Below, in pieces: positions 9,627 to 31,055 of a stretch of 64,000 bases of DNA. The first letter of the stretch is position 1. Each line of letters starts with the position of its first letter. The position numbers were made by a program, and so were the translations under genes. The notes beneath the pieces were generated by a model. That model did not search any database, was not told the origin of the DNA, and saw only the letters and a list, made by a program, of their open reading frames with translations. This stretch comes from Massilia sp. WG5. GTDB lineage: Bacteria > Pseudomonadota > Gammaproteobacteria > Burkholderiales > Burkholderiaceae_D. The stretch is taken from NCBI RefSeq assembly GCF_001412595.2, contig NZ_CP012640.2:1116001-1180000 (forward strand), given 5' to 3'.

Positions 9627-9884
9627 ATGAAAAAATTTCTTTTCACCTTACTCAGCGTAGCGTCATTCGCTACCGCTTTGCCGGCGTTCGCAGGTCCTGA
9701 TTGGCAAATCATCGAGCATGGACGCAAGGTCAAGGCGGAGCGCATGCGACAGGAACAGGCTCAGCGCGCCCAGGAGGAGCAGCAGAGAAACGTGCAACAT
9801 CCGGATAACCAAGCCGAAAAGGAACGGATGATGAAGGCGTGCATGGAAATGATGAACAAGTCACAGCAGCAGAGTGATCATTAA
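9627..9884 (+). CDS. small periplasmic protein downstream of cusA
   Basis: 85 residues from ATG 9627 with AAAGGAG at 9614-9620. The signal peptide MKKFLFTLLSVASFATALPA ends near FAG. The mature part is short, charged and Gln/Glu-rich (predicted helical), with a Met-rich tail (ERMMKACMEMMNKS) that could coordinate Cu(I). It lies between cusA and the CusF gene. No named family was recognised; periplasmic localisation is well supported, function is not. Confidence 0.75.
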   Translation: MKKFLFTLLSVASFATALPAFAGPDWQIIEHGRKVKAERMRQEQAQRAQEEQQRNVQHPDNQAEKERMMKACMEMMNKSQQQSDH

Positions 9885-9973
9885 TGAACCCGTAACGGCT
9901 AACTTAGCCACAACGACTTGGCGTCCCGTCGTGGACTCAAGACTTTACTTTTATTCACTTGAGGAGAACTCTC

Positions 9974-11188: not shown

Positions 11189-12274
11189 GTGGAAAGCTTC
11201 CCGCGAAAAGAACTCGTTAATATTGTGCAGTCCGGCATGACCGGCTCGCGTAGCGCCTTCGCGCTCGCCGTCGGCCGGTTCGCGACCAAGCTGAAACAGA
11301 CAGACCTAGCCCTGGCGCAGGAAATTGCACAGTTTCTCTCGTCCGAGAACGTCATGCGCGGCGCAGGCGACTTCGTGCCGGCACCTGTCGACGCGGACTC
11401 GCGCATGGAGCTGGTCGAGACCGTCTATCCGGTCGTCGTGCCGAAAAGACCGGTCTTCAACGGTACCGTGCAGGACGTGCTCGACGATGTACTCAAGGAA
11501 TGGCGCAGCCTCGACGTGCTCATCCAGGAAGGACTCGCTCCGGCGCGCATGCTGCTGTTTTGTGGCCAGCCTGGCGTCGGCAAGACCCTGGCCGCGTACT
11601 GGCTCGCCCAGGAACTCAAACTTCCCCTGCTTACCCTTAATCTTGCAACCGTCATGAGCAGCTTCCTGGGCAAGACCGGGAACAATGTGCGCGCAGTGTT
11701 CGATCACGCCATGTCCAGGCCGTGTGTCCTGCTGCTCGATGAATTCGACGCCATTGCCAAGCGCCGCGACGACGACAGTGATGTGGGCGAATTGAAACGA
11801 CTGGTCAACGTCTTGCTGCAGGCGCTGGACGACTGGCCGGCCAACGCCCTGCTGATCGCTGCCACTAACCATGGAGAATTGCTCGATCCCGCCGTCTGGC
11901 GCCGGTTCGACCACGTCATCCAGTTCGAGCCGCCCTCCGCTGAGCTTATCGAAACCTACCTTGCAGACCTGGCCATGGAAGAGAAGGTTCGTAAGAACTT
12001 GGCTGCGCTGCTACACGGGGAATCGTTCAGCGGTATCGGCCAGATCGTGAACGCTTCGCGCAAGACCGCGCTGCTGGAGAAAGCCGAGCTCGTGCCCACA
12101 CTGGTCAAGAACGCCGTTAGGTTGCGAATAAGTAAAGGAGATATGGCCAAGCCCCATGAGGGCGAGATGTTGCTCATGTACCTGGCCGGTCACTCGCGCA
12201 GGGAAATTGCCACAAGCCTGGGCAAGACCCATCCAACAGTCAGCAGTGTCATCAAACGTTACCTCGGGGAGTAA
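11189..12274 (+). CDS. ietA: AAA+ ATPase of an IetAS-type toxin-antitoxin / defence pair
   Basis: 361 residues from GTG 11189, preceded by AAAAGGA (11177-11183); the frame is open further upstream but has no good start. A single AAA+ module: Walker A GQPGVGKT (Lys132), Walker B LLLDEFDAI (Asp184-Glu185), sensor-1 AATNH. The C-terminus ends in a helix-turn-helix-like segment (SRREIATSLGKTHPTVSSVI). ATPase genes of this kind paired with an S8 protease are described as IetA, the antitoxin of the Ti plasmid IetAS system, and the same pair was reported as an anti-phage system. The ATPase probably restrains the downstream protease. Six bases separate the two genes. Confidence 0.8.
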   Translation: MESFPRKELVNIVQSGMTGSRSAFALAVGRFATKLKQTDLALAQEIAQFLSSENVMRGAGDFVPAPVDADSRMELVETVYPVVVPKRPVFNGTVQDVLDDVLKEWRSLDVLIQEGLAPARMLLFCGQPGVGKTLAAYWLAQELKLPLLTLNLATVMSSFLGKTGNNVRAVFDHAMSRPCVLLLDEFDAIAKRRDDDSDVGELKRLVNVLLQALDDWPANALLIAATNHGELLDPAVWRRFDHVIQFEPPSAELIETYLADLAMEEKVRKNLAALLHGESFSGIGQIVNASRKTALLEKAELVPTLVKNAVRLRISKGDMAKPHEGEMLLMYLAGHSRREIATSLGKTHPTVSSVIKRYLGE

Positions 12275-12280
12275 TCAGGA

Positions 12281-14497: not shown

Positions 14498-14501
14498 CAC
14501 G

Positions 14502-14548
14502 CAAAGGCCTTTGGCAGGGCAATGCATCCGCAACGCTGACAAAGGCCT
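14502..14548. terminator. palindromic hairpin after ietS
   Basis: A perfect 12-bp palindrome CAAAGGCCTTTG (14502-14513) lies 5 bases after the ietS stop, and its right half pairs perfectly over 9 bp with CAAAGGCCT at 14540-14548. There is no T-run, so it is not a textbook intrinsic terminator; it could still end transcription or be an integrase-related site. Confidence 0.35.
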
Positions 14549-14691
14549 AGCCGCGCAGCAGGCTTTCCTCGCCCTCGGCGAGCCGCCTGTGGCCAAGGTG
14601 TCAGTGCCGATTTCGGTGACGAACTCGTAGAGCGAGGCAATGCTCGGCGCCGTGCTAAATTCTACTGCGCAGTGCACACAGGCCATGCTCG

Positions 14692-15640
14692 ATGGCGACA
14701 GACCGCGCCCTGACCATGCCTGATTTACCTATCTCCCTGGAGCACGAACGCGAGGTCGCTCCGATAGAAGCGCTGCACGTGCCTCATGAACTCGATGGCT
14801 CACGTGGAACGAACCGCGAGTGGAACGTGCCGCGACAAATCGCAGCCAACACAGACGTCGAGGCTGTGCGCGCATGGCTGGCGAACTTCGTCGGTACCAA
14901 GACGACATTCGACGCCTATCGAAAGGAGGCCGAGCGCCTGCTGGTGTGGTCGATATGGGAAGCCGGCAAGCCACTTTCCTCGCTGACCCACGAGGATTGG
15001 CTGGTCTACCAGCGCTTCCTGGCATCACCCGGGCCTCGCGAGAAGTGGGTGGCGGACAAGGGGCGCAAGCACCCCCGCAGCGACAACCGCTGGCGGCCCT
15101 TTGCTGGCCCACTCTCTACCGCAAGCCAACGACAGGCGGGCGTGATCCTCAATTCGACGTTCGCCTGGCTTGTCAACGCAGGCTACCTTGCTGGCAATCC
15201 GCTGTCGCTCTCGCGCCATCGCAAGCCTCGCTAGGCCCCGCGCATTGAGCGCTATCTTGACGAGGACCTGTGGCTACAGGTCAAGACCACAATCGATGCC
15301 CTGCCCCGCGAGACCCCGCGTGAACGCGAGCACTATTTCCGCCTGCGCTGGCTCATCACGCTGTGTTACGTCTGCGGCCTGCATATCTCAGAGGTTGCGA
15401 AAACAGCATGGGCAATTTCTTTTGCCGGCGCGACCAGGGCGGCACGGAACGCTGGTGGCTCGAGATCCTCGGAAAGGGGAGCAAGGTGCGGATCGTGCCG
15501 GCCACGAACGAACTCATGGTAGAGCTTGGCCGTTACCTGCGCGAATTGAGCTACCCGCCTATGCCGGTCCCGGGAGAGTCGACGCCCCTGTTGCTACACA
15601 TTGGCGGCAACCCAAAGGCCCTCGTCGCTCCACATAGTCA
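14692..15640 (+). pseudogene. decayed tyrosine recombinase/integrase
   Basis: The first 180 codons encode a SAM-like core-binding domain of a phage-type integrase (ATG 14692), ending in an in-frame TAG at 15232-15234. The protein reading continues in the same frame (APRIERYLDEDLWLQVK up to LCYVCGLHISEVAK), then a single-base loss near 15405 shifts it to a second frame (MGNFFCRRDQGGTERWWLEI, GKGSKVRIVPATNEL). Homology stops at about 15640, before the catalytic HxxR and Tyr motifs, where an unrelated AT-rich gene begins. Nonsense, frameshift and 3' truncation make it clearly non-functional. Confidence 0.8.
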
Positions 15641-16060
15641 TGCCACATATGTCCCTTTTAGATTGCGCGCGGCTTTTATCACGTCATTGGTCCGGTCCAG
15701 TGCATCTTTCGGGGCCACAGACACGGCCTCGCTATCTGTTTCTTTCGTGATCCAGCCATTTGGAAAGTGGAACCACGTTGCGATTGACCAGGTATCCGCG
15801 CATTCGCCATACGCCTTCAGGATATTCCTGACGACCGGCAAAGGTTGAAACATCGGGTCGAATTGATAACGAGGATAATATTCTTCTCCATTATACAAGA
15901 CACTGAAGATCCGCCCATGGCGCTTCCAAGCACTCGCTGGAAATGACTTTTTCCGTGGGGGCCTAATTTGTAGCTTGTTGATCTCTTCTGCTGTCAGCCA
16001 TTCACCATCATCGAACACCTTTTTGACTGTAGCCATCTGATCAATCCGATCTTCAAGCAT
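15638..16060 (-). CDS. small protein with MbcA/ParS/Xre-like C-terminal region
   Basis: 140 residues; the ATG at 16060 has a good AAAGGAGG about 8 bases upstream. The C-terminal half (QPLPVVRNIL, then IATWFHFPNGWITKE and APKDALDRTNDVIKAA) follows the pattern of the toxin-binding domain of MbcA/ParS/Xre antitoxins (tryptophan-rich strand, PNxWL loop, LL/LD helix). No RES-domain toxin lies beside it. Base composition is far more AT-rich than the core genes, so it was probably acquired. Family assignment is tentative. Confidence 0.5.
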   Translation of the reverse strand: MLEDRIDQMATVKKVFDDGEWLTAEEINKLQIRPPRKKSFPASAWKRHGRIFSVLYNGEEYYPRYQFDPMFQPLPVVRNILKAYGECADTWSIATWFHFPNGWITKETDSEAVSVAPKDALDRTNDVIKAARNLKGTYVA

Positions 16061-16402
16061 GATGCCGTCCTCCTTTTCAACACCATATTGATGGCTTTCA
16101 CGGAAGTGAGTTCCAAGCTAAGCAAATCAGATGCTATCCGTCAGCCTGCCTGCGAACCATATTTTCGATAACCGCCTCAGGCATCGCCCTCACGAGCAAG
16201 CCACCAAATTTGCGAAAACTTTAAAGCCTACAAACTTGCTAGCAATCGCAATCAGCATAATTATTCACACTTAGGCTAATGTGCTCGCCACCAATACAAC
16301 GACCCGAAGTATTAGGAAATTCCTTCGCTATCATTACATACTCCTTTCGCGCGCCGCCAGTATGCCGTAATTACTCATTGATTCTTCCTCATTCTCTTAA
16401 TA
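16061..16402. other. AT-rich intergenic stretch without a gene
   Basis: About 340 bases with no open frame of useful length and no RNA gene that I recognise. It contains the ribosome binding site of the 140-residue gene at 16069-16076 (read on the minus strand) and otherwise only low-complexity AT-rich sequence. Confidence 0.5.
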
Positions 16403-16690
16403 TCATGTATAGACACCAAATTCTACTCTAGTTAGATAGTCTAGTAAAATCTGGACGTTTGCAGATTTTGCCAAATCCACAGGGCGTCTGCCACCAAGGC
16501 CTATTGCTGGGGCAATAAACCAATTTAAAGCAGACCTTTTATCGCAACCAAGCGCACGAACGATGCTGGGCTCAATAGCATGCCATTCACTCAATAGCCC
16601 AAGCATTTTTAAACGCTTTTTTTGACCATTTGGCGCAGAGTAATGAAACGAGTAGCTGTAAAGTTGCGTTTTTCGCGACCTAACTCTCAT
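16403..16690 (-). CDS. orphan antitoxin-like protein with MbcA/ParS/Xre toxin-binding domain
   Basis: 95 residues. The last 45 residues (NWFIAPAIGLGGRRPVDLA followed by a helix ending DYLTRVEFGVY) closely match the toxin-binding domain of the DUF2384/MbcA/ParS/Xre family, whose typical form is W-x-TPN-x-x-LGG-x-xPxxLL. The N-terminus is basic (RVRSRKTQLYSYSFHY) and too short for the usual Xre DNA-binding domain. No RES toxin is adjacent, so this is an orphan or a remnant. It is the second such domain within 1.1 kb. Confidence 0.6.
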   Translation of the reverse strand: MRVRSRKTQLYSYSFHYSAPNGQKKRLKMLGLLSEWHAIEPSIVRALGCDKRSALNWFIAPAIGLGGRRPVDLAKSANVQILLDYLTRVEFGVYT

Positions 16691-16760
16691 AATTAAGATT
16701 TCTACAAAATAGTTAATTAATTATTTAAAAAATCGTTTTGCAGAGCTAAATCGAAAATTT

Positions 16761-17111
16761 CTACTTGAGACGACGTAACACTTCCTCATTGATCCATTGC
16801 GCTTCAGCCTTCGATATCAGGCCGCCTTCAAAAAATGCGTCGAGATAATGATCCAGTACTTTCTCTTCGCTCAGCCCTACGATTTTTCCTTCCTTGGCAG
16901 CGTGCGCCCTTCCCGTCAAGTCGGCCACATATTCTAAGCACATGGTCCAACGTTCATAGATTTCAGGTGGCGTACAGCCGGCCACATAAAATTTTCCTTT
17001 GTACTTTGACATTATTAGTTTTGGCTGCGTTCCAGGAATCGTGGCCGGGTAGTCAGGGCGAGGAAAACTCACCGGGACCTTCAAAAATTCATTCTCATCA
17101 ATCTCGCGCAT
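16761..17111 (-). CDS. conserved-looking hypothetical protein
   Basis: 116 residues, soluble, no signal peptide or membrane segment. It contains PGTQPKLIMSKYKGKFYVAG and a helical second half (CLEYVADLTGRAHAAKEGKI, then a C-terminal pair of helices). I do not recognise a named family, though short proteins with a PGTQPKL motif occur in mobile regions of proteobacteria. It sits in a run of minus-strand AT-rich orphan genes. Confidence 0.55.
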   Translation of the reverse strand: MREIDENEFLKVPVSFPRPDYPATIPGTQPKLIMSKYKGKFYVAGCTPPEIYERWTMCLEYVADLTGRAHAAKEGKIVGLSEEKVLDHYLDAFFEGGLISKAEAQWINEEVLRRLK

Positions 17112-17429
17112 TTGATTAAACTTTTAATATTTTCGGAAATTCACTTTGGTGCTTTGAAAAGGTCCTGCTGCGTGGCAAATATCAGCAATGAACTGAAAAT
17201 TTACGAACTTGTTTGAGCGGCCGCTTCAAATTCGGTTGAATACGCAAAATAAAACTTCTTACGAATAAAAAACGACACGGTATTAAAATTTTCGCCAACA
17301 ACATAAAATCCCGGCGGCCCACAATAACCGGACTCTTCAACAATTTGGCAATCGCCGAATAATAACTAGGTATCAAGGACAACCATTATCGTTCCAATTC
17401 AGTAAACGCGCCCATCACATAACTGCATA
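17112..17429. other. AT-rich spacer without a supportable gene
   Basis: A 66-codon minus-strand frame (17182-17382) exists but has no ribosome binding site and no recognisable domain. I see no RNA gene or clear repeat in this stretch. Confidence 0.45.
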
Positions 17430-17918
17430 TCATATTTTGAAGTCTGGCTCAGCCCATACCAATGATACCTTCCGCAAATTATCTTTATCGACTTCGTCTA
17501 ATGCGTTGTGTTCCATTGCCCCATCAGATAGCTCAAATACGTGAACAATATTGCCGTCCGGACTATTGCCAACGAACACTCGCTTAACCGATCTTATTTT
17601 ATAATCGCGCTCGTCTACCCTCCGCGACTGCAATGATATCTTATAGAATTTTATATTTTCGGATTGAGCAAATAAAAAAACTTTTTCTATCGAATCAAAT
17701 ATGAAACGTTGCCAGCGGCTTTCCATAGAAACAGGCGCTACGTCAACATGAAAAATCTGGCCGTTAAATGGTATTTCAACAAACGAAAAAATATTAATAC
17801 TTGGTTGATCAAATAACTCACGCAACACATCGATTTGCTCAGAACTATATGAGCTTTGATAGGCATAAAACACTTTTCCGTCCTCAAACGTCAAAAAATG
17901 AATGACTGGCTTGAGCAA
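17430..17918 (-). CDS. hypothetical protein, AT-rich island gene
   Basis: 162 residues, mixed alpha/beta with many aromatic residues (FLTFEDGKVFYAYQSSYSSE; INIFSFVEIPFNGQIFHVDV). No signal peptide, no membrane helix and no motif that I recognise. Its composition (AT-rich, Phe/Ile/Ser-rich) differs strongly from core genes, as expected for transferred DNA. Single small acidic soluble proteins of this type are sometimes immunity proteins, but no toxin gene adjoins, so that is only a possibility. Confidence 0.5.
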   Translation of the reverse strand: MLKPVIHFLTFEDGKVFYAYQSSYSSEQIDVLRELFDQPSINIFSFVEIPFNGQIFHVDVAPVSMESRWQRFIFDSIEKVFLFAQSENIKFYKISLQSRRVDERDYKIRSVKRVFVGNSPDGNIVHVFELSDGAMEHNALDEVDKDNLRKVSLVWAEPDFKI

Positions 17919-17952
17919 TCAAGCGGCAAAATAGATGGCTAGTAGACGTTAA

Positions 17953-17994
17953 CATAATTCATCGTTACCTTAGCATAATTCATCGTTACCTTAG
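17953..17994. repeat. perfect 21-bp tandem duplication
   Basis: Two identical copies (17953-17973 and 17974-17994) of a 21-bp unit beginning CATAATTCATCG. The second copy contains the stop codon of the neighbouring minus-strand 104-codon gene (TAA at 17991-17993). Probably a replication slippage duplication. Confidence 0.85.
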
Positions 17995-18305
17995 GAATAC
18001 ATTAGGGCCTGCTGTGCCGACGATTTCATCAATTCAAGCGCTGCAGCGTTACCGGTAAGCTCGACTGTCAAGGCCGAAAATAGTGCCAAATAAAAACTTC
18101 GCTTGGGCCAAAGCGCATCTATCGGCACATGAAGCTCTTCGCGATAATTTTCAAAAAAATACCACAAGCCAAAACTCAAATTCCGTCGAATCATATATAC
18201 CTGACCTCGCAAGGTAAGTGCGAGAACGCTCGGCCGGTCATTCCGTATTGACGAACATTTTTTACAGTCCGCTTCAACTTGATGCAGGCTCTTAAGTAAG
18301 CACAC
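17991..18305 (-). CDS. hypothetical protein, AT-rich island gene
   Basis: 104 residues. The N-terminus has three cysteines (MCLL, CKKC) and a basic stretch; the second half is hydrophobic and helical (PKRSFYLALFSALTVELTGN) but not clearly membrane-spanning. No recognised family. The stop codon lies in a 21-bp tandem repeat. Confidence 0.4.
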   Translation of the reverse strand: MCLLKSLHQVEADCKKCSSIRNDRPSVLALTLRGQVYMIRRNLSFGLWYFFENYREELHVPIDALWPKRSFYLALFSALTVELTGNAAALELMKSSAQQALMYS

Positions 18306-18470
18306 AGGCCGACGTGAACCCCATCGCGACGGACACTAACGCGGGTTCAGACTAAGCGAGACCCTGGAACTTTAAGCCGAAAATCATTTTACATCAAGTG
18401 AATAGGCATTTTATGTCATTTTCTTCGAACTGCGCGCAGTTGAACATGACGGATTTTCAAGAGGAAACGC

Positions 18471-18836
18471 ATGCCAAGAAAGCCAAAAGCGCCCCGCGGA
18501 GCGGCTCTTGGCGCTCAGGTGGGGCGCAACATTAGGACTGCGAGAACCCAGCGCGGAATGACACAAGGGCAGCTAGCCGAGGCTATTGATATCGAAACGG
18601 CAACATTATCTCGCATCGAAATTGGCGCCCAACTTCCCTCGCTCGACCGACTTCAGCATATCTCGGAGGTCCTGCAGGTGCACCTGCGATCATTGGTAGC
18701 AGAGGAGAACACCCCAAGCCTATTCATCGAATCAATAGCAGAGGCGCTCAGCGGCCTTCCGACACGGGAGCAAGTATTTTTACGCGATTTCGTGCTCAGC
18801 TATTCTCTTCACTGGAAGCGTGGTCAGACGAGCTAA
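18471..18836 (+). CDS. Xre-family helix-turn-helix transcriptional regulator
   Basis: 121 residues, start at ATG 18471 after AAGAGGA. A canonical HTH_3 domain covers about residues 18-75 (RNIRTARTQRGMTQGQLAEA, then ATLSRIEIGAQLPSLDRLQ). The C-terminal 45 residues are a short helical tail, perhaps for dimerisation. It stands alone, divergent from the minus-strand small genes, and may control the adjacent island genes. Confidence 0.8.
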   Translation: MPRKPKAPRGAALGAQVGRNIRTARTQRGMTQGQLAEAIDIETATLSRIEIGAQLPSLDRLQHISEVLQVHLRSLVAEENTPSLFIESIAEALSGLPTREQVFLRDFVLSYSLHWKRGQTS

Positions 18837-18957
18837 GGATAACAAGACCATGCCTTTTACGATCGGAATTGGTGTAAACGCAATTTGACTAACAGGGTGT
18901 AGACGAAATCAATAAACATAGCTGTGGCATGCTATCGCGGTGTAGAAGGAGCATGCC

Positions 18958-19583
18958 ATGGCGACGAAACGTTCACTCGACGACTCTACCCCGTCGGTCC
19001 ACACTGGCGACAGGCCGCCAGCGTCGAACTCTGACCATATCGCAGCTTTGTACGATATCGTGACAGAGCATGCCCGGGCTGGTCTGCAAGAGATTGCTGA
19101 GGACTTACATCGCCGCTGTGGCGCACGCGTCTGTGCGGCGACGATTCGTCGCGCGTTACGTGCTCAAGGCATCGTACGACTCAAGCCGGTACGACGGGCG
19201 TACGCTGCAACCGCGGCCAAGGGGCCCAAGCGCTATGGCTACACGGCAGCCCATCGCCGCAAGGACGTGTCACCGTACAGTACCAATCTGACGGACGCGG
19301 AATGGGATCTGGTCGCCGATTTGTTCGAGCCTGCGCCGGGGCAACAAGGTACGCCTGTGCACTACAGTCGGAGAGAGAGCTCGTGAATGCATGTTCGTAC
19401 GGACTACGTACAAGCTGCGCCTGGCGGCTCTTACCCGAGACGTTCCCGCTCTGGCAGGCAATCTACAAAGCATTCGCGCGCTGGGTTGGGGCGGGCGTGT
19501 TCGAGCAGATACAAGACCGGCTGCGCGAACAATGGCGTGCACCGGTACAACAAAACCGCATTGTCCTGACCAAACGATCATGA
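18958..19583 (+). pseudogene. IS5-type transposase remnant with N-terminal winged helix
   Basis: The first frame (18958-19386) encodes a winged-helix/HTH region (LQEIAEDLHRRCGARVCAAT) followed by the start of an IS5-type DUF4096 domain (STNLTDAEWDLVADLFEP). A gain of two bases in the short (GA)n run at about 19371-19380 shifts the rest into another frame (LVNACSYGLRTSCAWRLLPE, then PLWQAIYKAFARWVGAGVFE). Homology stops near 19580, before any DDE catalytic residues. It is a frameshifted and 3'-truncated transposase. Confidence 0.75.
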
Positions 19584-19825
19584 CGGTAGCGTCACCCTTG
19601 CAGATGAAAGAGACTTGAGGGTGGAAGGTGACGGGTAGAGGTCGTGCTTAAACTTTGGCGGGCTCGCACCCCGTACCCAACGTGACCCGCCGAGCTGACT
19701 CGCACCCAGGATTGCACCTGCAAGGGCGTACGCTAAATTGGCCGTTGGCGAATTATCACCATCAGGCATCTTCAGTCTCGGCTCCCGCACCTTCCATTTT
19801 TGAGTCTAGCTCAAAGGGAGGGGCG

Positions 19826-21049
19826 ATGGAACTGGTGACGATCCATAAAAGCGTGATTGGCCTGGATGTCCATCAGGCGCAGATCACGGCCTGTGCGCTG
19901 ATTGAAATGCCCGATGGATCAACCCGGGTCGAACAGCGCCAGTTCGGTGGGTTCAAGCGTGATCGACGAGAATTGGCTGAATGGGCGTTGGCCCTCAAGC
20001 CAGACGAAGTGGTCATGGAAAGCACGGGCATCTATTGGAAGAGCCCTCATGCAGCGCTTGAAGCGGTCGGCATTCTTGCCAAGGTCGTCAATGCGCGGCA
20101 TGTTAAAAACGTTCCAGGGCGCAAGACCGACATTGGCGACGCGCAGTGGCTGGCGATGCTGTCACGGGCCGGTTTGCTACGTGGATCATTCATTCCACCC
20201 GCTGTCCTGAGGGAGCTGAGGCTGATCGCCCGTCAGCGACAAAAACTGGTCAGCCAGCTCACGGGTGAAAAAAACCGACTCCACAAGATCCTGGCCGATG
20301 GCGGCGTGCGTCTGAGCGTTGTGGTCAGCGATCTTCACGGACAGTCCGCGCGGATCCTGGTCAAAGCCATCATCAGAGGATGTTCGCCTCAAGAAGTTCT
20401 GGATCAAGCGAGCAAACGCCTTCGCGCCAGTAGAGAAGTGCTCTACGATGCGGTACAGGGGGAATTGACCGATAGCCATCGGTTTGCGTTGGGCGAAATA
20501 ATGCAGCACATCGAGGAGATCGAAGCGCGCCTTGCGCGCTTCGAGGCCCGTTTGCTCAATGGCCTCCAACCTGAACACAACGCGTTGGCGTTGCTGCAAA
20601 CGGTACCCGGTATCGACCTTGTGGGCGCGGCCATGCTGCTTGTCGAAATCGGCTCTGACATGACTTCATTTGGCAGCGCTGACCGATTGGCATCGTGGAT
20701 CGGCATTTGTCCGGGCAATCACGAATCTGCGGGCAAGCGTAAATCCGGTCGAGCGCGCAAAGGCAATCCCTACGTGCGTCGGCTGCTTTGCGAGTTTGCA
20801 CATGCCGCCTGCCGTTCAAACTGTGCCTTTAAACCGAAATTTGATGCCTTGATGCCGCGTCGAGGTTACAAGCGCAGCATCGTTGCAATCGGCCACAGCA
20901 TCATCCGCACCATCTTTTTCATGCTCCAGCGCCGCGAACATTACCGCGACCGCCTGGTCGATTACGAAGCCATGGCGGTCAAGCGTAATGCCCCCCGATG
21001 GATCAAGGCACTGACTAAATTCGGCTACCTCGATTCAGCCAGCGCCTGA
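19826..21049 (+). CDS. IS110 family transposase
   Basis: 407 residues from ATG 19826, with AAGGGAGGGG just upstream. The N-terminal DEDD domain has SVIGLDVHQAQITA (first Asp), VVMESTGIYW (Glu) and GRKTDIGDAQWLAML (Asp pair). The C-terminal Transposase_20 domain has LLQTVPGIDLVGAAMLLVEI and SGRARKGNPYVRRLL, with the serine region expected for this family. The reading frame is undamaged, so the element could still be active. Confidence 0.92.
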   Translation: MELVTIHKSVIGLDVHQAQITACALIEMPDGSTRVEQRQFGGFKRDRRELAEWALALKPDEVVMESTGIYWKSPHAALEAVGILAKVVNARHVKNVPGRKTDIGDAQWLAMLSRAGLLRGSFIPPAVLRELRLIARQRQKLVSQLTGEKNRLHKILADGGVRLSVVVSDLHGQSARILVKAIIRGCSPQEVLDQASKRLRASREVLYDAVQGELTDSHRFALGEIMQHIEEIEARLARFEARLLNGLQPEHNALALLQTVPGIDLVGAAMLLVEIGSDMTSFGSADRLASWIGICPGNHESAGKRKSGRARKGNPYVRRLLCEFAHAACRSNCAFKPKFDALMPRRGYKRSIVAIGHSIIRTIFFMLQRREHYRDRLVDYEAMAVKRNAPRWIKALTKFGYLDSASA

Positions 21050-21234
21050 TCTAACGGCGTCGTCCCCGAGTATGGCTACTCACAGGCCAGGGGTACGCAC
21101 GTCTCGATGGTTCTCTCTTTCACGCTAAATTCGGCTACCTCGATTCAGCCAGCGCCTGATCTAACGGCGTCGTCCCCGAGTATGGCTACTCACAGGCCAG
21201 GGGTACGCACGTCTCGATGGTTCTCTCTTTCACG
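21015..21234. repeat. 110-bp tandem duplication at the IS110 3' end
   Basis: Bases 21015-21124 are repeated at 21125-21234 with no difference that I can see, each unit starting CTAAATTCGGCTACC. The unit includes the last ten codons and stop of the transposase (FGYLDSASA) and the downstream end of the element. The ninth base of a third unit departs from the repeat (CTAAG at 21235). Confidence 0.9.
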
Positions 21235-21241
21235 CTAAGTT

Positions 21242-22085
21242 TACAGAAAGCCGAGAGAGCTAAGTCTTGCCGTGATAGGTCGCGCGGGCGCTCGCCACGA
21301 GCTCGGAAAAATCGAGCTTCCTGACTCGCTGAATGACGCAAAAAGTCGTTTAGCACGCGTAGACCCATTTGGTCTTAAGCGTCTCTACGACAACTTACGC
21401 GAGAAGATCGAAGAAGGCAGGATTTCCGAGTTGCTGCCTATGAACCCGAAGGACGCCCCTTCAGGTTTCTATGAATCGCTGTTTGGCCGAATCGTAGAAC
21501 AGGTGAATGGGGGATCAAGGAAGTTTGGGGCGCTAGCAGGAAGGCTGGCCGTGGACTGGATGAAGGCCATCCCCTACCTCGAGATGTTAGGTCGTTGGAT
21601 TTCAAGGCAGCGCAAGAGCGAGCGTAAGAAAGCCGAGCAAGCTTTAAATGATGGCATGACTCCTGCGAAGCCCAAAACGCTAGACGCTCTCATACGAGAC
21701 GCCTTCGACCTTATTGAAGAAATCGTACGTTTCCAATGTTTGCAGCTTGGGAAGGCCTGTCGAGACCTTCTGCTACAGGCACTACGACAAACAGGGAAAC
21801 GCCGATCTAGTACTAAAGGTGTTCGACTCTGCCCTGGCGCTGGAACTCGGAATTTCATAAAAGGCCGCAACAGCCTATGTTGAACTCGACCTGTCGCGAA
21901 TAGCTGCGTCCGCCCTCCAGCGTCTTTCGCCTGAGGAAGGCCCTCTCACAACGGAAGCCTCACGGCAACTCCTTCGCGATTTGAAGGTGGAAAGCCTTAA
22001 CCTAAGCCCAATAATCGTCACCGAGTTGCTTAGACTGGGCCTGAGTAAAGAAGCGAATAATTCATCACCATCCCAGCAAGGCTAG
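21242..22085 (+). pseudogene. 3' remnant of a larger gene, frameshifted
   Basis: An open frame enters from the IS110 end with no credible start and reads KPRELSLAVIGRAG, faintly like helicase motif VI, then a long helical region (DPFGLKRLYDNLREKIEEGR, VDWMKAIPYLEMLGRWI). Near 21790 the protein reading moves to another frame (NADLVLKVFDSALALELGIS), meets an in-frame TAA at about 21860, and resumes (KAATAYVELDLSRIAASALQ) until a stop at 22083-22085. The 5' part was probably removed by the IS110 insertion. The original function is unknown; helicase is only a guess. Confidence 0.5.
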
Positions 22086-22251
22086 CTAGCCAAATTAATC
22101 CTAGGAGCCTACTGCATGCTTTACCCTATGCGACTCGTTTCTTTGCCTAACTAGGGGGTTGTCGTTTTGATACTCTCATTAAATCAGTACAAAGCCTTAA
22201 AAAAAGGAAAAACTTCGCTCGTCAGATTCAGTGGCCTACAGATGAGCGATA

Positions 22252-23565
22252 TTACACCAAGAAGTTGGAAACCGAATTAGTTGAAATTGTTTCAGACTTT
22301 CCGGCAAAAAAATCGAGCATTTTTATCTCTTCAACCGCTTCAGGCGGCAATCCTTCGTCAATCTGCTGACGATTCCCTGGCAATGCAAAAGGAACTACAA
22401 TCTCCGCTCTCTTCCGAGTAATGGTTTTGATGTAATGACGTGTCGTCTCAATGGAAACATGCCCGAGCTGAAACTGCAAAAACGTTTGAAACTGGGCTGC
22501 CATTCTTTCATCTAACTCAATTCCTTTTAGTCGACAATAGTTCCATAAAAGATGCGTCGCGCCGGTATGGCGTAGGTAGTGAGGTTTAACTTTTAAGCCT
22601 GTCTGACGAAATGCCTCTTCCACCATGTATGGTTTTACTGGAACCCCGCTTTCCGTAAGCCAGAGTAACTGTCCCGCTTGTGGTAGCTCAAGCTGCCCCT
22701 GACGTAGACTAGCATTTTTGCGAACACTATAACTCTGGTCAAATAGTTTCTTGCGACTCTCGAAACATTTCGATATATAGTCACGGTAAATAGCCTCAAC
22801 AGTTTCTGGCCAAATATAACACCAAGCGGGCTTGCGTCCTTTAGCGATATGGTGAAACTTAAGAAATTCCGTGTCAGTGGCCCTCATTTCCGGCCATAAC
22901 ATCCAATGCGGATTTAATTTTCCTCGCGATCGAGGCAATTGGCATGCATTACTTACCCGAAGGCAAGTTTGCATCATTGTTTGCGCTAGTACCGCATATA
23001 CAATGTCAATTTTCGCTAGGCGACGATATAGTTCCCCGTAAGTCGCCATGCTAATTACACGACCGACGTAATCATCAACTATTGGAGTTCTTTTCTGTCC
23101 GTCATCTTGGGCATAATGATGAACGTACCTACTATGGACATCACCAACCTCATCACGATGCCCGGCCCGTGTGGCTGCTCGCTTTTCCGGGAAGATCGCC
23201 GCATGAGAGATTCCTTTCATGGTTAGAAACTCGAAAAACTCGCGTATCCGAAGGTATTTAGTGTTGTACGTTGAATTACCCCATCCGTGAACGTTCTGCT
23301 GCGCATCAAGTAGACGCGTTACCTGCTCATAAGTCACTGACGTAAAATGAAACCCATTTGCAAACAGCGCCTCTAAGAACTGCTTGATGTCATAAGCTAT
23401 ATTTCTTAGTGAACTTACGTCCACAGTCTTCATCCCGACCAAGATACGCGACGGCCAATAGAAGCGATATATCAAAAACTCGCACATCTCCCTTTGCAGA
23501 ATTCCGTCAACAAAAGGAATAAGCAAGCCTGAGTCAAGATCTTTATACAGTTCTATTTCCATTTG
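22252..23565 (-). CDS. tyrosine recombinase C of the integration module
   Basis: 437 residues from ATG 23565; the frame is open to a TTG at 23733 (56 more residues), which would overlap the upstream gene, so the start is uncertain. All catalytic motifs are visible: Arg in QTCLRVSNACQLPR, HxxR as KPHYLRHTGATHL, His in LGHVSIETT and the nucleophile Tyr in RHYIKT. It is the smallest and least divergent of the three recombinases here and is the last gene of the module. It probably performs strand exchange for integration or excision of the island. Confidence 0.88.
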   Translation of the reverse strand, partial: QMEIELYKDLDSGLLIPFVDGILQREMCEFLIYRFYWPSRILVGMKTVDVSSLRNIAYDIKQFLEALFANGFHFTSVTYEQVTRLLDAQQNVHGWGNSTYNTKYLRIREFFEFLTMKGISHAAIFPEKRAATRAGHRDEVGDVHSRYVHHYAQDDGQKRTPIVDDYVGRVISMATYGELYRRLAKIDIVYAVLAQTMMQTCLRVSNACQLPRSRGKLNPHWMLWPEMRATDTEFLKFHHIAKGRKPAWCYIWPETVEAIYRDYISKCFESRKKLFDQSYSVRKNASLRQGQLELPQAGQLLWLTESGVPVKPYMVEEAFRQTGLKVKPHYLRHTGATHLLWNYCRLKGIELDERMAAQFQTFLQFQLGHVSIETTRHYIKTITRKRAEIVVPFALPGNRQQIDEGLPPEAVEEIKMLDFFAGKSETISTNSVSNFLV

Positions 23566-23704
23566 CCCAACAGATGCTTTATTTATCAAACCAAAGCAGA
23601 TTCCCGGACGAGTAATTGCCGCGCCCGAGCGACCGCCCTCTTCACCAACCTGCTTCCGCACGCAAACAGCGAAACGCGCTATAGCAGAAGTTCTTACATT
23701 GTGA

Positions 23705-24709
23705 TTATGACGAGGCGTGTTTGTTTCGCACAACGATCATTTCGTCGATCCAGGTTTCCTTATAAGGATCCGGCAACGTCAACTTTTTATACATTAAATC
23801 TAAGTCCTCATAACTAAGCATCTTGCCAGAGGCGTGACGATTGGCGTTCCGTTCCTTTACGATCTCATTTGGTGTATCAAAAAATACGCAACATTTTGTT
23901 ACATCCTTGGCGCGTTTAGCGTACTGTACTAGATTTTCACGTTCATATCGCGTCAGGTTTGTCGCATCAAATATTACTGAATGGCGATCAGTGTATAGTT
24001 GGGCGTTGGCAGCCCAGGTCGACTTGCCCGAACAAGGCAGTCCGACTAATACATAAAGTCGCTTTGGATGCGCTCGGCTTAGTGCCTCATCTAATTCGTC
24101 GTAACACTTCAGCCATGCATCATGGCGGGCGCCCTCGTCACTGAATCTGTAAATCGCATTGCCAAACAAATATTTGTCGGGACAGATTACGGTTCTTATC
24201 GCACGATCAATTCCAACGACTTGTCCTGAGCCTTGTCCTTTAGTCGACACCGGATCTGATAATTTGGCTTGCAAGAGCAAGATCGTTTTACGCGCTTCGT
24301 CAAGTTCTCGCAACCAATTTGACGATACATTTTTGGCGGTTTCCAACTCCATAATAATTGGTCGAACTGATGACTTTACGCGATCTAGTTCTTGTTCCAA
24401 ATCCGCAATTTCGCTATTCTCATGAACAACAGCCTTGCAATTTTGAAATTCTTCTCGAAAAGCAATGATTTCCACACCGATTTTTCGATAGTCCTCTGCG
24501 ACACCATTTTCGGCAAATGGCTTATTTCCAGTAAGATAAGATTTAGCGACGCATGCTTTCTCAGCTATTTTTGTGATACTACATTCATTTACTTTATTCA
24601 TTCTCTTTGCGCGCTCCTTGCACTCTTTGAACGCCTGTCGGATATCTAAGAGTCGTTCCTGATGAGTTCTCGCGTCACGTTTCCTTTTCGAGCCAAAATC
24701 AGACTCCAT
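23705..24709 (-). CDS. TnpC-like helix-turn-helix/coiled-coil protein fused to a P-loop kinase
   Basis: 334 residues from ATG 24709; a GTG at 24718 overlapping the upstream stop is an alternative. The first part (SITKIAEKACVAKSYLTGN) looks like the small DNA-binding region of DUF6262/Tn554 TnpC-type proteins, followed by a heptad-like coiled coil (residues about 100-170). The C-terminal half is a P-loop kinase of the AAA_33/polynucleotide-kinase type: Walker A VGLPCSGKST (Lys229), then VIFDATNLTRYERENL and ERNANRHASGK. It sits between recombinases B and C, as TnpC follows TnpA and TnpB in Tn554. The kinase substrate is unknown; DNA ends, nucleotides or RNA are possible. Confidence 0.75.
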   Translation of the reverse strand: MESDFGSKRKRDARTHQERLLDIRQAFKECKERAKRMNKVNECSITKIAEKACVAKSYLTGNKPFAENGVAEDYRKIGVEIIAFREEFQNCKAVVHENSEIADLEQELDRVKSSVRPIIMELETAKNVSSNWLRELDEARKTILLLQAKLSDPVSTKGQGSGQVVGIDRAIRTVICPDKYLFGNAIYRFSDEGARHDAWLKCYDELDEALSRAHPKRLYVLVGLPCSGKSTWAANAQLYTDRHSVIFDATNLTRYERENLVQYAKRAKDVTKCCVFFDTPNEIVKERNANRHASGKMLSYEDLDLMYKKLTLPDPYKETWIDEMIVVRNKHASS

Positions 24710-24710
24710 T

Positions 24711-26714
24711 TCATTCACCCACCAATTCGCTTGGAAATATCTTTTCAATATCCGAGGCATATTGTTTGACAAAAGCTCGCGCTTGAATACGCAACTCCTC
24801 TGTAGCAAGAGGTTGTCCGACTCTCGATTCTAAAAATCCGATATACCAATAAAAGGAATCTCGGAGAGCGGTTGACCAAGGGCCAAGCATCGCATGCTCA
24901 CAGCGTTTACCAACGCACTGCGCAGGGTTTGGTGCCGCTTGCATATAGCGCCACAATTCTTGATCTATCGCATATTGCTTGATGTTGTCTCGCTCAGTTC
25001 GTATTGCACATGGTGGAGGAGACGAGTCATGGGGATTCCTCGTACACAGAACACCGAACGGCGTCATCATTGCCAACATTGAACCGCTAACAATTCGCTC
25101 TCTAACGCGTTCTTCAAAAGACGTCAATAGCTCTGAATCCGACATTGATTCGGAATTCGCATTTTGAACAGATCGATGAGATTCATAACCCCTAATGAGT
25201 TCTTCTCCTCTTCCACCTGCGAGCCGGCCAGTTGACGCCGCTTTACTCATTCTCTTGGCCATTGCGCTTGCAGCTTCCTCAATTGCATCTTTTCTGGCTT
25301 TAAGGAAAATAGGATTGTGATGAAGGTAGGCAAGAGGCATCAAGTTGCTACCGTGACCAAACAAACGCCTCACCAAAAGTATCGACAGACTACTTGCGGA
25401 GTCTAGCCAACCGGCAACTGTAGCACGGTAACAATGAGCGGTGTATTCATCATCGTCACCATAAGGCGTGACAAAGGGAATGTCGAACCATTGCGCGAAT
25501 TTCCGTAGCCATCGATTGACCGTGGATTTACAAACCCTTGCCTTATCTAGTTCTTGTATTCGCCTATAGTTTTTCCCGAAAGGAGCTATAACGTAAGGAC
25601 TATCGTCATTCCATCGCAATTTTTCTAGAATCGAAATAGCATGGTTAGTTTGCTCTGGAACTGGCAGACGGAGGTGTATCGCGGTTTTATTCACATAGGC
25701 GTCGACATAGTAGAGCATGTCGGCTCTACCAGAAGGCCTACAACAGCCTGTTCGGACGAAGGTGAGATCAAGGTTTCTTAGTCCAGTAGTTAAGAAAATA
25801 ATATTAACGCACGCAGCCCTCAACAAATTGACCATCGAGAGAAAGATCTTGAACGGCAGCGGCCCTTCTTTGGAGAAACCCGCGTGATTGCGCGGCGATG
25901 AGCACGCAAGTTTTTTTATCGATGTGGCAAACTTGATTCCAGCTTCAGATCGAAGATATGGAGTATAGCTTTCCGAACTCATGGTCACCGCTTCCCGATG
26001 AGCCGCTAATATCAACTCGGAATATTCCTCGATTATCCACATTGACCGTTCAATGACGGGCTGGGTGGTTTGTGGAGGCATAGCCAAATATGGCCTCACT
26101 TCAAAAGCTGGCTCTTTTAAATTTGCATAACGCTTGTTAATCCATTTCTCAAATGAAGTATCTTTCCATGGATATTCAAATGTAGGCAGAAGAAAATATA
26201 AACCGTCCACCGCATGCCGGGGCAAGTCCTTCAGAAGATTCAGGCATGTCGGCAACCTTCTGACTTCTGCACGTAAAACGATCTTCTGATCGATTAAGGG
26301 AACAAGCTCATCGGTTCCGATTTCATTGAGTCCAATTAAATATTCTCCGGCACATCCTTGAAGGATGGATTTTTCCTCTAAAGTCTGCTTTAAAAAGCCT
26401 AACAACATATTGAGATAACCCGCTACCGTAGATAGGCTAACCCGTTTCAACTCAATATAATTGAGTATAGCAATTTTTAAAAGTAGAACAAACGCAGGAC
26501 GTTTGTTGGCTGGATCAACCGACATCCAGCGGATACCGGATTGAGGTATTGTCTCATCTCGCCACTCTAGATCCTTAAAAATGTTCGTCGAGCCTGGAAT
26601 TTTTTTTTCCGAGTACCTATCGGCTAACTGTCGGATACAAATCCACTGTGCGTTTGCCAGATCCGCTAGCTCTTCAAAATTTTTAGACCGCGCTTCAAAA
26701 ACGATATTTTCCAT
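24711..26714 (-). CDS. tyrosine recombinase B of the integration module
   Basis: 667 residues from ATG 26714; the frame is open further upstream into the preceding gene, but the upstream residues look like a shadow of it. Catalytic elements are complete although divergent: Arg in FLTTGLRNLDLTF, H-x-x-R as TAHCYRATVAGW, His in RLFGHGSNL and Tyr in PLAYLHHN. It is much longer than XerC/D-type enzymes, with a large N-terminal region of about 330 residues before the catalytic core. It begins 31 bases after recombinase A and is followed by the kinase gene after one base, so the four genes form one operon. Confidence 0.85.
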   Translation of the reverse strand: MENIVFEARSKNFEELADLANAQWICIRQLADRYSEKKIPGSTNIFKDLEWRDETIPQSGIRWMSVDPANKRPAFVLLLKIAILNYIELKRVSLSTVAGYLNMLLGFLKQTLEEKSILQGCAGEYLIGLNEIGTDELVPLIDQKIVLRAEVRRLPTCLNLLKDLPRHAVDGLYFLLPTFEYPWKDTSFEKWINKRYANLKEPAFEVRPYLAMPPQTTQPVIERSMWIIEEYSELILAAHREAVTMSSESYTPYLRSEAGIKFATSIKKLACSSPRNHAGFSKEGPLPFKIFLSMVNLLRAACVNIIFLTTGLRNLDLTFVRTGCCRPSGRADMLYYVDAYVNKTAIHLRLPVPEQTNHAISILEKLRWNDDSPYVIAPFGKNYRRIQELDKARVCKSTVNRWLRKFAQWFDIPFVTPYGDDDEYTAHCYRATVAGWLDSASSLSILLVRRLFGHGSNLMPLAYLHHNPIFLKARKDAIEEAASAMAKRMSKAASTGRLAGGRGEELIRGYESHRSVQNANSESMSDSELLTSFEERVRERIVSGSMLAMMTPFGVLCTRNPHDSSPPPCAIRTERDNIKQYAIDQELWRYMQAAPNPAQCVGKRCEHAMLGPWSTALRDSFYWYIGFLESRVGQPLATEELRIQARAFVKQYASDIEKIFPSELVGE

Positions 26715-26745
26715 AGCATCAATGGTGATCCGAACTAAACGTTTA

Positions 26746-28860
26746 TTAAACTTTAGTTTGTATGATTGGAGGCAAGGACACCGCTCCCGATCTCGCGTCC
26801 TCCCACGCACGCTGAACTAAAGCCTCACCGTCCCTTGAATTTTTCTTTTTGTACTTATTTAATGCATCGTTAGCAATCAACCAACGATCTTCATATACGG
26901 CGTTCCAAGTAACACCCATTATCAGTCGTTGCTCTTCATATTGAAGAATTCTCAAGCAGATGTATGGCAGGTGTTTTTGACAAATGATACTACGCCTACA
27001 ACCGAGACATAGGTCGTAATAGGTGCATTCTTTTGCGATCGCCATGCCATGGGTAGGGTTAGCTGGATCTTTGCACTCGCACAAGTATAGGGATTTTCGC
27101 GCTTCAGGTTTATCCTCCAAAGATACTTCGCCAGCGAATTCCAACGCTTGATTAATATTTTTGGAAGTGATTGTAGCTATAGCAATATCGAGAACCGCTG
27201 TGGCGTTTTGCGAACGCATTATATAATTAGATAGAGTAACGTCTAGCGTATTGTGGTCTAGGTCTGATTGAAGCCGGTCCGCAAGCTCCTGAGAATTCAC
27301 GACACCAGATAGGTGCTCCAACATTTTTGTTGTCGCAAATACCTTTCTGAATCTTTTTGTTTCCAAGCTCTGTAAGAGCTCCCCGTTTTCTAGAGTTACG
27401 GGATAACGTTGATTCAAATCCCGACCCCATTGACTTACGACAGTTTCTGCCATTTCAAAGAACGGGCCGTCAAAATTTGTTTTCGCATGCCTTTCATACT
27501 CCTCCAACATCTGATATAAAGGACTATCGATCACTATAGCAACGGCAATTGGCTTGTCTTTTGTGAGCGAACCGGTTTTTCTTTTCCATCCGATAATCTC
27601 GACTTCTTTAGGCGCACCCTCTTTTCTAACGAACAAGGTGTCGCCTTGGGACAATATGCTTTTCCCATCAATACGCGACGACCAACTTAGCACAACCTCT
27701 TTATTGAGCCCAGTATAAATCATTACTATATTAACCAGGCAGAATGCAAGTTGCGATAGAGCCCCCGTTTTATCGTCTTTCACTGAACGTTTAGCATAAA
27801 GTCCGAAAACATTATGTCTTGGCGCAGTAGAGTGTAGAAGATGGGTCTTCCTTTCCCAGACTACATATGCCTCATATTTTTTTGCCAAATCAGGACAGTA
27901 CTTCGCATAACCAAGAATCAGTTTAGTAAATTGCTTCTTTGAATGAAAATTAAGCTTAAACCATAGAAGTTTATGATTTAATATTTTTCCGTAGCCAATC
28001 TCGGTCGATAGCCAAAGATGCAAGAAATTATAAATATCGGCCCTTCCGTTACTTGCTCGCCTGGGTTTACGTCCATGGAATATCCAATCTTCGCCAAGAG
28101 ACTCCAATGTCAACTCTTCATAATGCTTCAAGTAAGCTATCTGGCGCTTGAACCGATAGAGAAATTGCGCTAGCAATTGATACATAATTGCATCGGAATA
28201 TGCCCCGTCTATATCATCACCGGAATGATTATGCGGCTCAGGAGCATTATTCCGACGTGGATTTGGCCAAGCTATCTTTTGCAAGTTTCCGTCAAAACTC
28301 GTCGCATGATATGATGAAAATATAGATCTGGGATCACCGAATGCTCTCTTATAACCTTTGACGTTTCCCGTCTCAAGGAAGCTTCTGTAATCCAGCCAGT
28401 CCTGATATTCGATACTGTAAATGTTGAAACCATCTAATTTTTCTAAACGAGAGGTGGAGATGAACTCGATCCAAATCTTCACGCTGGTAACGATATTCGT
28501 CAGCGTGCTATATGATTTGTATTTTCCCGTTAGGAAATGAATCATTAGCCGTGCTAATTGGTGGCCGAATCCGGGCGTGATCTTTTGAGAAGCGAAATCG
28601 GGGAGTGCAAGTGACGATAAGCCGCGATTACCGCTGTTCCCGCCGATGACATATTTGATGCCATTTGCTTTGGCCGCTATGACCTCTGCAGATGAAGGCG
28701 TTTGAAGGTAGAACCGGGTAAGTTTTTGTTCAGAACGACTGCCGCCGTCTGATATATCGATAAACCGCTTGAGCGGCGGTAAACCGTCATCTTGCAACTG
28801 GGCGCGATTGGCGTCAGGCAATAACTGAATGTGTACGGGAGGTTTCGACCGACGGCCCAT
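26746..28860 (-). CDS. tyrosine recombinase A of the integration module, degenerate active site
   Basis: 704 residues, start ATG 28860, the first gene of the module. The catalytic-domain pattern is recognisable but altered: where the first Arg is expected the sequence is IYTGLNKEVVLSW (Asn386), the HxxR position reads ETKRFRKVF (Lys for His, Arg kept), while the final DHNTLDVTLSNYIM keeps His and Tyr. A cysteine cluster follows (LCECKDP, then KECTYYDLCLGCRRSIICQKH), probably a zinc site. It may be a structural or regulatory partner rather than a full strand-exchange enzyme. Large first recombinases with a C-terminal Cys cluster are known in recombinase trios. Confidence 0.8.
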   Translation of the reverse strand: MGRRSKPPVHIQLLPDANRAQLQDDGLPPLKRFIDISDGGSRSEQKLTRFYLQTPSSAEVIAAKANGIKYVIGGNSGNRGLSSLALPDFASQKITPGFGHQLARLMIHFLTGKYKSYSTLTNIVTSVKIWIEFISTSRLEKLDGFNIYSIEYQDWLDYRSFLETGNVKGYKRAFGDPRSIFSSYHATSFDGNLQKIAWPNPRRNNAPEPHNHSGDDIDGAYSDAIMYQLLAQFLYRFKRQIAYLKHYEELTLESLGEDWIFHGRKPRRASNGRADIYNFLHLWLSTEIGYGKILNHKLLWFKLNFHSKKQFTKLILGYAKYCPDLAKKYEAYVVWERKTHLLHSTAPRHNVFGLYAKRSVKDDKTGALSQLAFCLVNIVMIYTGLNKEVVLSWSSRIDGKSILSQGDTLFVRKEGAPKEVEIIGWKRKTGSLTKDKPIAVAIVIDSPLYQMLEEYERHAKTNFDGPFFEMAETVVSQWGRDLNQRYPVTLENGELLQSLETKRFRKVFATTKMLEHLSGVVNSQELADRLQSDLDHNTLDVTLSNYIMRSQNATAVLDIAIATITSKNINQALEFAGEVSLEDKPEARKSLYLCECKDPANPTHGMAIAKECTYYDLCLGCRRSIICQKHLPYICLRILQYEEQRLIMGVTWNAVYEDRWLIANDALNKYKKKNSRDGEALVQRAWEDARSGAVSLPPIIQTKV

Positions 28861-31055
<2,195 letters not shown>

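Follow-up and report, generated by a model that had tools for sequence, protein, structure and literature searches.

The window analysed here is a stretch of 64,000 nucleotides from Massilia sp. WG5 (NZ_CP012640.2, positions 1,116,001 to 1,180,000), and its minus strand carries four tightly packed open reading frames (ORFs) where a preliminary description, made from the sequence, had placed them. We refer to their products as A, B, K, and D. Start codons were picked to reproduce the lengths in that description, and A, B, and K agree with it at 704, 667, and 334 amino acids (aa); D, however, has 436 aa and not 437. For searches, B and K were extended a little at the N-terminus, to 678 and 352 aa. 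The genes are separated by 31 bp (A-B), 1 bp (B-K), and 142 bp (K-D).

26746-28860, minus strand: A, 704 aa, predicted Tfp/GinC-like recombinase-fold protein, the outermost gene of the element
24711-26714, minus strand: B, 667 aa, predicted large catalytic tyrosine recombinase, IntB/TnpB-like
23705-24709, minus strand: K, 334 aa, TnpC/Srap/GinD-like helix-turn-helix (HTH) region and coiled coil, with an apparently permuted polynucleotide-kinase-like P-loop domain
22252-23562, minus strand: D, 436 aa, predicted catalytic tyrosine recombinase, IntA/TnpA-like

This module is very probably the recombination machinery of an island of the GInt/SE type, which would insert site-specifically in the ligase gene ligA and compensate by bringing in, at its other end, a complete LigA of foreign origin. 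The preliminary description covered the module itself but not the insertion in ligA, nor the replacement gene, the presence of the island in a second host, or the rearrangement of the kinase domain.

The island and its site in ligA

Beyond gene A, the module borders a host ligA that is interrupted at about window position 28944, inside the adenylation domain. A whole-genome search with a LigA profile returned four matches: the N-terminal part of this gene, its C-terminal part, divided into two matches (C1:1015270-1016757), and a full-length gene alongside (C1:1017108-1019144). The element extends from C1:1016734 to about 1144944, or ~128.2 kb.

28945..29816, minus strand: host ligA, N-terminal part only, with the adenylation domain cut between YEI and DGVVYK
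28945..28949, no strand assigned: ATCGA core (TCGAT on the plus strand) at the module-end junction; a second copy lies at the far junction, C1 about 1016729-1016733
28917..28943, minus strand: module-end terminus (TTTACTAAC...CGGTTTAC in the inward direction), tentatively one half of an imperfect inverted repeat at the two ends
1..28944, no strand assigned: part of the element inside the window, which extends ~99.3 kb further left (C1:1016734-1116000)
C1:1017054-1019225, minus strand: complete replacement ligA, ~0.3 kb inside the far end of the element
C1:1015270-1016733: remainder of host ligA, beyond the far end of the element

The listed ORF of the N-terminal host part (295 aa) continues a few codons into the element. 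Intact ligA genes of relatives served as the reference for the junctions; the site motif was present in 16 of the 18 fetched loci, with L037 and L039 unmatched by the pattern. Relative to the empty site CTACGAGATCGACGGCGTGG, the module end reads CTACGAGATCGA followed across the junction by ATTTACTAAC, and the far end reads CATATGAAAAC followed by ATCGACGGCG. Compared with the intact sites, the insertion is thus precise, with ATCGA at either junction. At the ends themselves, eight termini of four elements show an AT-rich terminus and then a CGGTTGAC-like block. The terminal pattern that we wrote from them fits six of the eight, and its density in three elements and their flanks is 0.008-0.054 per kb and strand, own ends counted.

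The same split ligA, full ligA, and module are present in a different genome of the genus (G320, 7.5 Mb). Inside the element, four aligned pieces longer than 1.5 kb are 98.7-99.94% identical between the window genome (G000) and G320, separated by some kilobases of insertion differences, and identity in the module reaches 99.97% (6,684 bp). The flanks differ far more. Per 250-bp bin, host DNA to the left of the far junction gives 63.7-90.8% identity and that to the right of the module junction 78.3-94%, except for one bin at 54%, whereas inner bins are at 99.6-100%; identity shifts at both junctions. Even the base beside the far core differs (CATCGA in G000, TATCGA in G320). A near-identical element within diverged flanks, with the shift at the junctions, implies that the element moved between species, and we read the pair as one element inserted at the same site in two species and not exchanged together with its flanks. 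A block swap by homologous recombination via common flanks, which blastn alignments had suggested, was rejected when windowed identity revealed that blastn had over-extended.

The replacement LigA is a 723-aa protein with adenylation, OB, zinc, HHH, and BRCT domains, and its gene is the only full-length LigA-profile match in the host genome. ligA is known as an essential gene in bacteria. Among the 62 genomes of the genus compared, the protein is 100% identical in the two that bear the island and is 42-47% identical to LigA of the 59 others, with 41 and 46% for the two pieces in the remaining genome (G350). GC content at third codon positions (GC3) is 0.50 in the replacement ligA, 0.42-0.43 in the module, and 0.88 in native ligA; most listed cargo ORFs are also farther from 0.50 than the module is. 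At the position of the insertion site, the replacement gene has 20 of 39 bases in common with the empty site, and this divergence could spare it from becoming a target itself.

Among the best 120 of 7997 database matches, the closest other relative of the island LigA is from Massilia sp. WF1 (94%), which points to this genus, without proving it. The matches that follow in the same set, at 61-70%, come from mixed sources, including Glaciimonas, Blastocatellia, Syntrophobacteraceae, and metagenomes (P0106-P0223), and may indicate a widely transferred type of LigA. A viral scan with the island LigA found no relative. Adjoining the replacement ligA is a gene for a cytidine/dCMP-deaminase-like protein (C1:1019768-1020691; L006:8768-9691) with equally low GC3, perhaps part of the element backbone. 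The ligA of G350 (G350:C1 about 3949232) has a C-run lengthened by one C within a few bases of the insertion site and a second frame break beyond it. We considered this split gene as an excision scar and rejected the idea, as the extra C in a C-run and the further frame break make an assembly or sequencing error likelier.

Protein families of the module

The preliminary description counted three tyrosine recombinases. This holds for B and D, in which the residues R-K-H-R-H-Y are invariant (9/9 sequences for B, 8 sequences for D), but A is a Tfp-like protein that lacks Arg I. Pfam recognized Phage_integrase in D and nothing above cut-off in A or B, PHROGs recognized an integrase in D and B, and neither collection gave an integrase match for A. 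In A, an invariant G-x-N takes the place of Arg I, with Asn in 9/9 sequences, while R505 and Y546 are kept. The His of the HxxR position is Lys in the window protein, and His is present in L026, one of the nine. The C-terminus of A has invariant Cys residues, spaced C-x5-C-x2-C in the nine sequences.

For comparison we assembled reference modules from plasmids, some retrieved with D and others with gene two of the first module found. Six records were obtained; in one of them insertion sequences (IS) interrupt the module, which left five for comparing its third and fourth genes. The gene order in these modules is a recombinase of ~380 aa, a 559-aa protein, a 620-aa recombinase, and an HTH protein of ~142 aa (sizes of the first module). 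Profile comparison with hhalign matched D to the first gene (E 3.9e-25), B to the third (E 1.4e-13), and A to the second (E 1.9e-4, Prob 47), whereas the wrong pairings A-third and B-second gave 0.057 and 0.13; the second-gene family has the same G-x-N and Cys spacing as A. The N-terminus of K matched the fourth gene, the small HTH subunit of GInt/SE-type modules (E 1.1e-5, Prob 81.5). Each protein thus appears to have a GInt/SE counterpart: D is IntA-like, B IntB-like, A Tfp-like without Arg I, and the K N-terminus Srap/GinD-like. Together with a Pfam AAA_33 match, the small-subunit match bears out the earlier account of K as a TnpC-like HTH and coiled-coil region joined to a P-loop polynucleotide-kinase-like domain in a multi-recombinase operon. 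The kinship with DUF6262 that had been offered as a check came out weak (2 of 25 family members, best E 0.12), and DUF6262 references, found in 1 of 274 genomes, were too rare for use.

The kinase domain of K is classified by Pfam as AAA_33/KTI12 and has the Walker A motif GLPCSGKST. It keeps an invariant Asp196 (25/25 aligned relatives; numbering of the 352-aa form) and DATN- and RN-type motifs, and it is fused to the TnpC-like part in 25/25 aligned relatives. Against its best PDB matches, which are named Metallophosphoesterase there and which we take to be Clostridium Pnkp, the P-loop and DATN stretch of the K profile align, while the 47 residues between them correspond to 9 profile positions. 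We initially regarded the catalytic Asp as lost, given a gap between P-loop and DATN that is ~38 residues shorter than in Pnkp, and dropped this idea when the matching segment was found upstream. Specifically, the IS-x-D segment that is absent after the P-loop sits just before it (residues 192-233 of the 352-aa form).

Moving this segment behind the P-loop in silico raised the Pfam AAA_33 score of the window protein from 59.7 to 72.6 bits (57.9 for one shuffled-segment control) and that of a relative, P0037, from 47.9 to 56.9 bits (control 44.6). The NCBIfam Pnkp score of the window protein rose from 28.1 to 39.7, a comparison with no shuffled control. On a local profile built from six classical kinases, the moved form scored above the mean of 20 shuffles in all 83 of the 102 K relatives that could be parsed, and above every one of the 20 in 80 of them, with a mean gain of 24.5 bits over shuffles. 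These relatives are not independent and the parsing pattern demands the Asp, so the invariance of Asp196 rests on the alignment. K thus apparently ends in a P-loop domain that resembles polynucleotide kinases but has a swapped segment (a circular permutation), and this domain most likely uses ATP and is of polynucleotide-kinase ancestry. Pnkp, T4 Pnk, and AAA_33 proteins share its Walker A motif, DATN strand, and RN-type motif, but in these the order is P-loop, Asp segment, DATN, and lid, whereas in K the Asp segment precedes the P-loop.

Six viral loci (two with one common protein) have the classical order, P-loop first, by eye. A phage family of unknown function, phrog_6931 (343 positions), matches the kinase half of K (E 1.1e-12), and proteins of K-like layout may therefore occur outside the module. 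The same may be true of permuted kinases, given a stand-alone short protein (L014, a 163-aa ORF at G099:C21) that by eye has the segment before the P-loop as in K.

Recurrence, other targets, and known systems

With its context known at 17 loci (the window and 16 more), the module has B adjoining K in all 17, A in 16, and D in 15; the locus that lacks A ends at a contig edge, and D was not found or is partial at two loci. Since the four-gene set recurs at 16 further loci, it is not a chance grouping. The preliminary description named K homologues that mostly lack recombinases as a refutation, and the 17 loci do not bear this out: K always keeps B beside it, in a sample that leaves most of the 102 database relatives of K uncovered. 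Those relatives, retrieved by a search with a length filter, are each listed with AAA_33; P0013, P0089, and P0090 are markedly shorter than the others.

Scanning of species genomes yielded 13 loci, of which nine are real relatives (L018-L026) and four are partial matches to the kinase region. A, B, K, and D lie in this order in seven of the nine. At L021, A, B, and K are at one end of a 54.5-kb element and D is at the opposite end; the 5.8-kb contig of L025 contains a partial B, then K, and the start of D (D by eye). In the family of genome G332, K was found in 11 of 395 genomes, with six new loci that all contain A, B, and K and, in five cases, D. A RecD-like helicase and a protein of the 257-aa type lie downstream of K in five of these six. 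Closer to the window, A was found in 3 of the 392 genomes of its family (G000, G320, and G437), the G437 match falling at the coordinates of the L021 element, and a search of 300 genomes of the order with K gave one full-length match, the window's own, plus five weak partial ones. A tblastn search of plasmids with A, B, and K found no relatives, nor did a viral scan with the A alignment.

In several related elements the break in the target falls at a conserved catalytic motif (with profile support for recQ, radA, and nrdJ). Among targets whose identity is backed by Pfam or a profile, recQ is split at the Walker A codons next to L019 and L020, nrdJ at L021, radA at KNRFG at L023, and an HI0933-like gene at L026. 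By eye, the targets are aspartoacylase-like and thioesterase-like genes at L022 and L024, where Pfam gave no match on the short fragments, and two peptidase-like genes at L127 and L131. No split target was recognized at L018, L025, L129, L130, L132, or L134, of which L025 and L132 stop at or near A or B. Targeting of conserved catalytic motifs would account for a broad host reach, at the cost of one gene.

Both halves of the target were located for L020, L021, and L023. The L020 genome has no second recQ match above 79 bits, and the L021 genome has one further ribonucleotide reductase, on another contig, at 386 bits and below the NrdJ cut-off. The radA halves of L023 are on separate contigs of a metagenome-assembled genome (MAG), and the lack of a replacement radA is consequently not proven there. 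At L019, also in a MAG, a second full-length recQ on a different contig is ambiguous as a replacement.

The preliminary description could not place the four-gene combination, but this protein set, in a different arrangement, is that of GInts (PMC5385486) and SEs (PMC10214605). In GInts, too, an operon of four genes lies at one end of an island with cargo and encodes three recombinase-type proteins and one small TnpC-like protein. Other common points are short imperfect repeats (tentative here), insertion in protein genes, ribonucleotide reductase among them, and cargo for metal resistance and restriction. GInts differ in gene order (ginA-B-C-D, versus Tfp-like, IntB-like, TnpC-kinase, and IntA-like here), in reported size (up to at least 76 kb versus ~128 kb), and in GinD, described as small and without conserved domains, whereas K has 334 aa and a P-loop domain. 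The sections consulted describe no GInt that, as here, interrupts an essential gene midway and supplies a replacement (PMC5385486).

SEs have the same four component types and a short core between their ends, but in the order intA-tfp-intB-srap, which is not that of the present module. Their terminal inverted repeats are imperfect, as the tentative ones here are; they are described from Gammaproteobacteria only, with a median of 15.7 kb, and their Srap has no motifs of DNA-processing enzymes, unlike K (PMC10214605). GInts and SEs are the closest systems and cover most of the finding, and what is new is the gene order and the C-terminal domain of K.

To our knowledge, TnpC of Tn554 has no kinase. 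Tn554 tnpABC resembles the module in its two catalytic recombinases with TnpC and in its target specificity, and it has a 6-bp footprint, but no Tfp-like component is described for it in the same source (PMC10214605). RIT elements are described with three recombinases (315-410 aa in the archetype), each of which has the catalytic Tyr, and with inverted repeats of 34 bp (PMC10214605), a description that the 704-, 667-, and 436-aa proteins and the fourth, TnpC-like gene do not fit. Among the papers listed in searches of open-licence literature, none reports a kinase-fused recombinase subunit, or islands in ligA or bringing a replacement, which does not prove absence; passages of one of these papers (PMC7824862) contain nothing relevant to such a subunit.

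How the module may work

The anatomy of the element, its precise insertion with a shared ATCGA, the replacement gene, the two hosts, and the homology of the four proteins can be read directly from the DNA. Several points weigh against our interpretation of them as a mobile GInt/SE-type island that compensates for its insertion in ligA. Mobility is read from sequence, with excision, transposition, and a circle as predictions. The island is present in 2 of 62 genomes of the genus. The match of A to the second gene of the plasmid modules is weak (Prob 47), and the alignments behind all module comparisons are shallow. The reference modules were called GInt/SE-type by gene order, size, and residues and are not the published GinABCD or SE sequences; with the Tfp-like gene second, their order is that of SEs, yet four of the six are from Betaproteobacteria, where SEs are unreported. 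The terminal pattern misses the far end of the window element, the module end of L021, and 5/5 more distant module ends. The statement that the replacement is the only full-length ligase holds for the LigA profile, with ATP-dependent ligases outside the search. Finally, no replacement was recognized for recQ (L020), nrdJ (L021), or radA (L023), so compensation is not general; among the targets checked it is clear only for ligA, where loss of the gene should be lethal.

By analogy with the GInt and SE families, D and B would cut and exchange strands, A would be a catalytically reduced architectural subunit, and the N-terminus of K would bind DNA and stimulate or orient recombination. All four would act at the ends of the element, which would pass through a circle. 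In GInts, mutation of any one of the four genes left no detected circle (PMC5385486); the circles of SEs are nicked double strands with a one-sided 6-bp mark (PMC10214605).

The role of the kinase-like domain allows several readings. A plausible one, somewhat less likely than not, is that the permuted domain binds or hydrolyses ATP and thereby steers complex assembly or direction, without phosphorylating nucleic acid. Its constant fusion to the TnpC-like part, the short segment between P-loop and DATN, and the rearranged fold are in keeping with such a switch. In kinases of this superfamily, however, the general base is an Asp at the position of the invariant Asp of K, which suggests phosphoryl transfer.

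Such transfer leads to a second reading. Tyrosine recombinases leave 5'-OH ends, and K might phosphorylate the 5'-OH left by exchange of one strand pair, as in the strand-biased SE route, with a ligase then sealing the nick; this would add an enzymatic step to integration or copy-out. The conserved motifs of K and its Pnkp-type PDB matches are consistent with this, as are the nicked SE circles. Against it, normal tyrosine recombination requires a free 5'-OH, and the activity of K is itself a prediction. In the sections consulted, no kinase is reported for the small subunits of GInts and SEs (PMC5385486, PMC10214605). We regard end healing by K as speculative and unlikely.

A chance fusion that made the kinase a passenger, whether it acts on nucleotides or RNA or serves as a maintenance factor resembling zeta toxin, is quite improbable. 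It draws on matches below cut-off to PSTK (E 2.2e-7) and Zeta_toxin (E 0.13) and on phrog_6931, which is of similar length. Yet the fusion occurs in hosts from Zeta-, Beta-, and Gammaproteobacteria, always next to B at the loci of known context, and no separate antitoxin-like gene was recognized in the module, though no search was aimed at one. That the replacement ligA is ordinary cargo, placed beside the attachment site by coincidence, is very improbable despite the many other acquired genes on the island and the elements in recQ, nrdJ, and radA that have no recognized replacement, since the duplicated gene is the destroyed one, lies ~0.3 kb from the far end, is the sole full-length gene among the four profile matches, and is nearer to the module in GC3 than to native ligA or most listed cargo.

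A precedent for self-compensation is RME, the recA element of Vibrio cholerae S24 (PMC4405046), which also splits a DNA-repair gene at a specific site and has a complete, divergent copy of its target at the end opposite the integrase. RME is 32.8 kb long, targets recA, and has a phage integrase and XerS annotated; the present island differs in its ligA target, a replacement of predicted function about 43% identical to native LigAs, and a four-part recombinase module.

The most far-reaching interpretation, which we consider rather unlikely, is that these elements form a third branch of four-protein tyrosine-recombinase islands, in which a permuted kinase on the TnpC-like subunit would heal 5'-OH ends and the ligA member would bring a ligase diverged at the target site, replacing an essential host gene in transfer between species.

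Apart from this interpretation, the module connects an orphan kinase fusion with the GInt/SE/Tn554 recombinases, for which processing of the unjoined strand still needs an explanation. The island also shows a mobile element swapping, between species, what appears to be the sole full-length NAD-dependent ligase of a host. Such an exchange bears on ligA-based phylogenies and on how the essentiality of ligA is read.

Some minor features were noted, mostly by eye. The ORFs of the island include arsenic, copper/silver, and cadmium/zinc-type resistance genes, IS elements, and others, and the recQ (40.4 kb) and nrdJ (54.5 kb) elements also have metal-efflux genes (L079-L084). Modules of the Alteromonadaceae type (L023, L024, L025, L127, L129, L130, L131, and L134) have two additional genes after K, one for a protein of ~257 aa that belongs to no known family and one for a RecD-like helicase of ~700 aa (by eye for L024 and L025); the helicase of L023 matches PADLOC typeIV_RecD (E 9.8e-60). 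Within the window, ~100 bp at 21040-21240 seem tandemly duplicated directly after the gene for an IS110-like transposase (19655-21049), and genes for an AAA ATPase, a subtilisin-like protease, and a broken tyrosine recombinase are clustered within the island at 10700-15848, possibly as the remains of another element.

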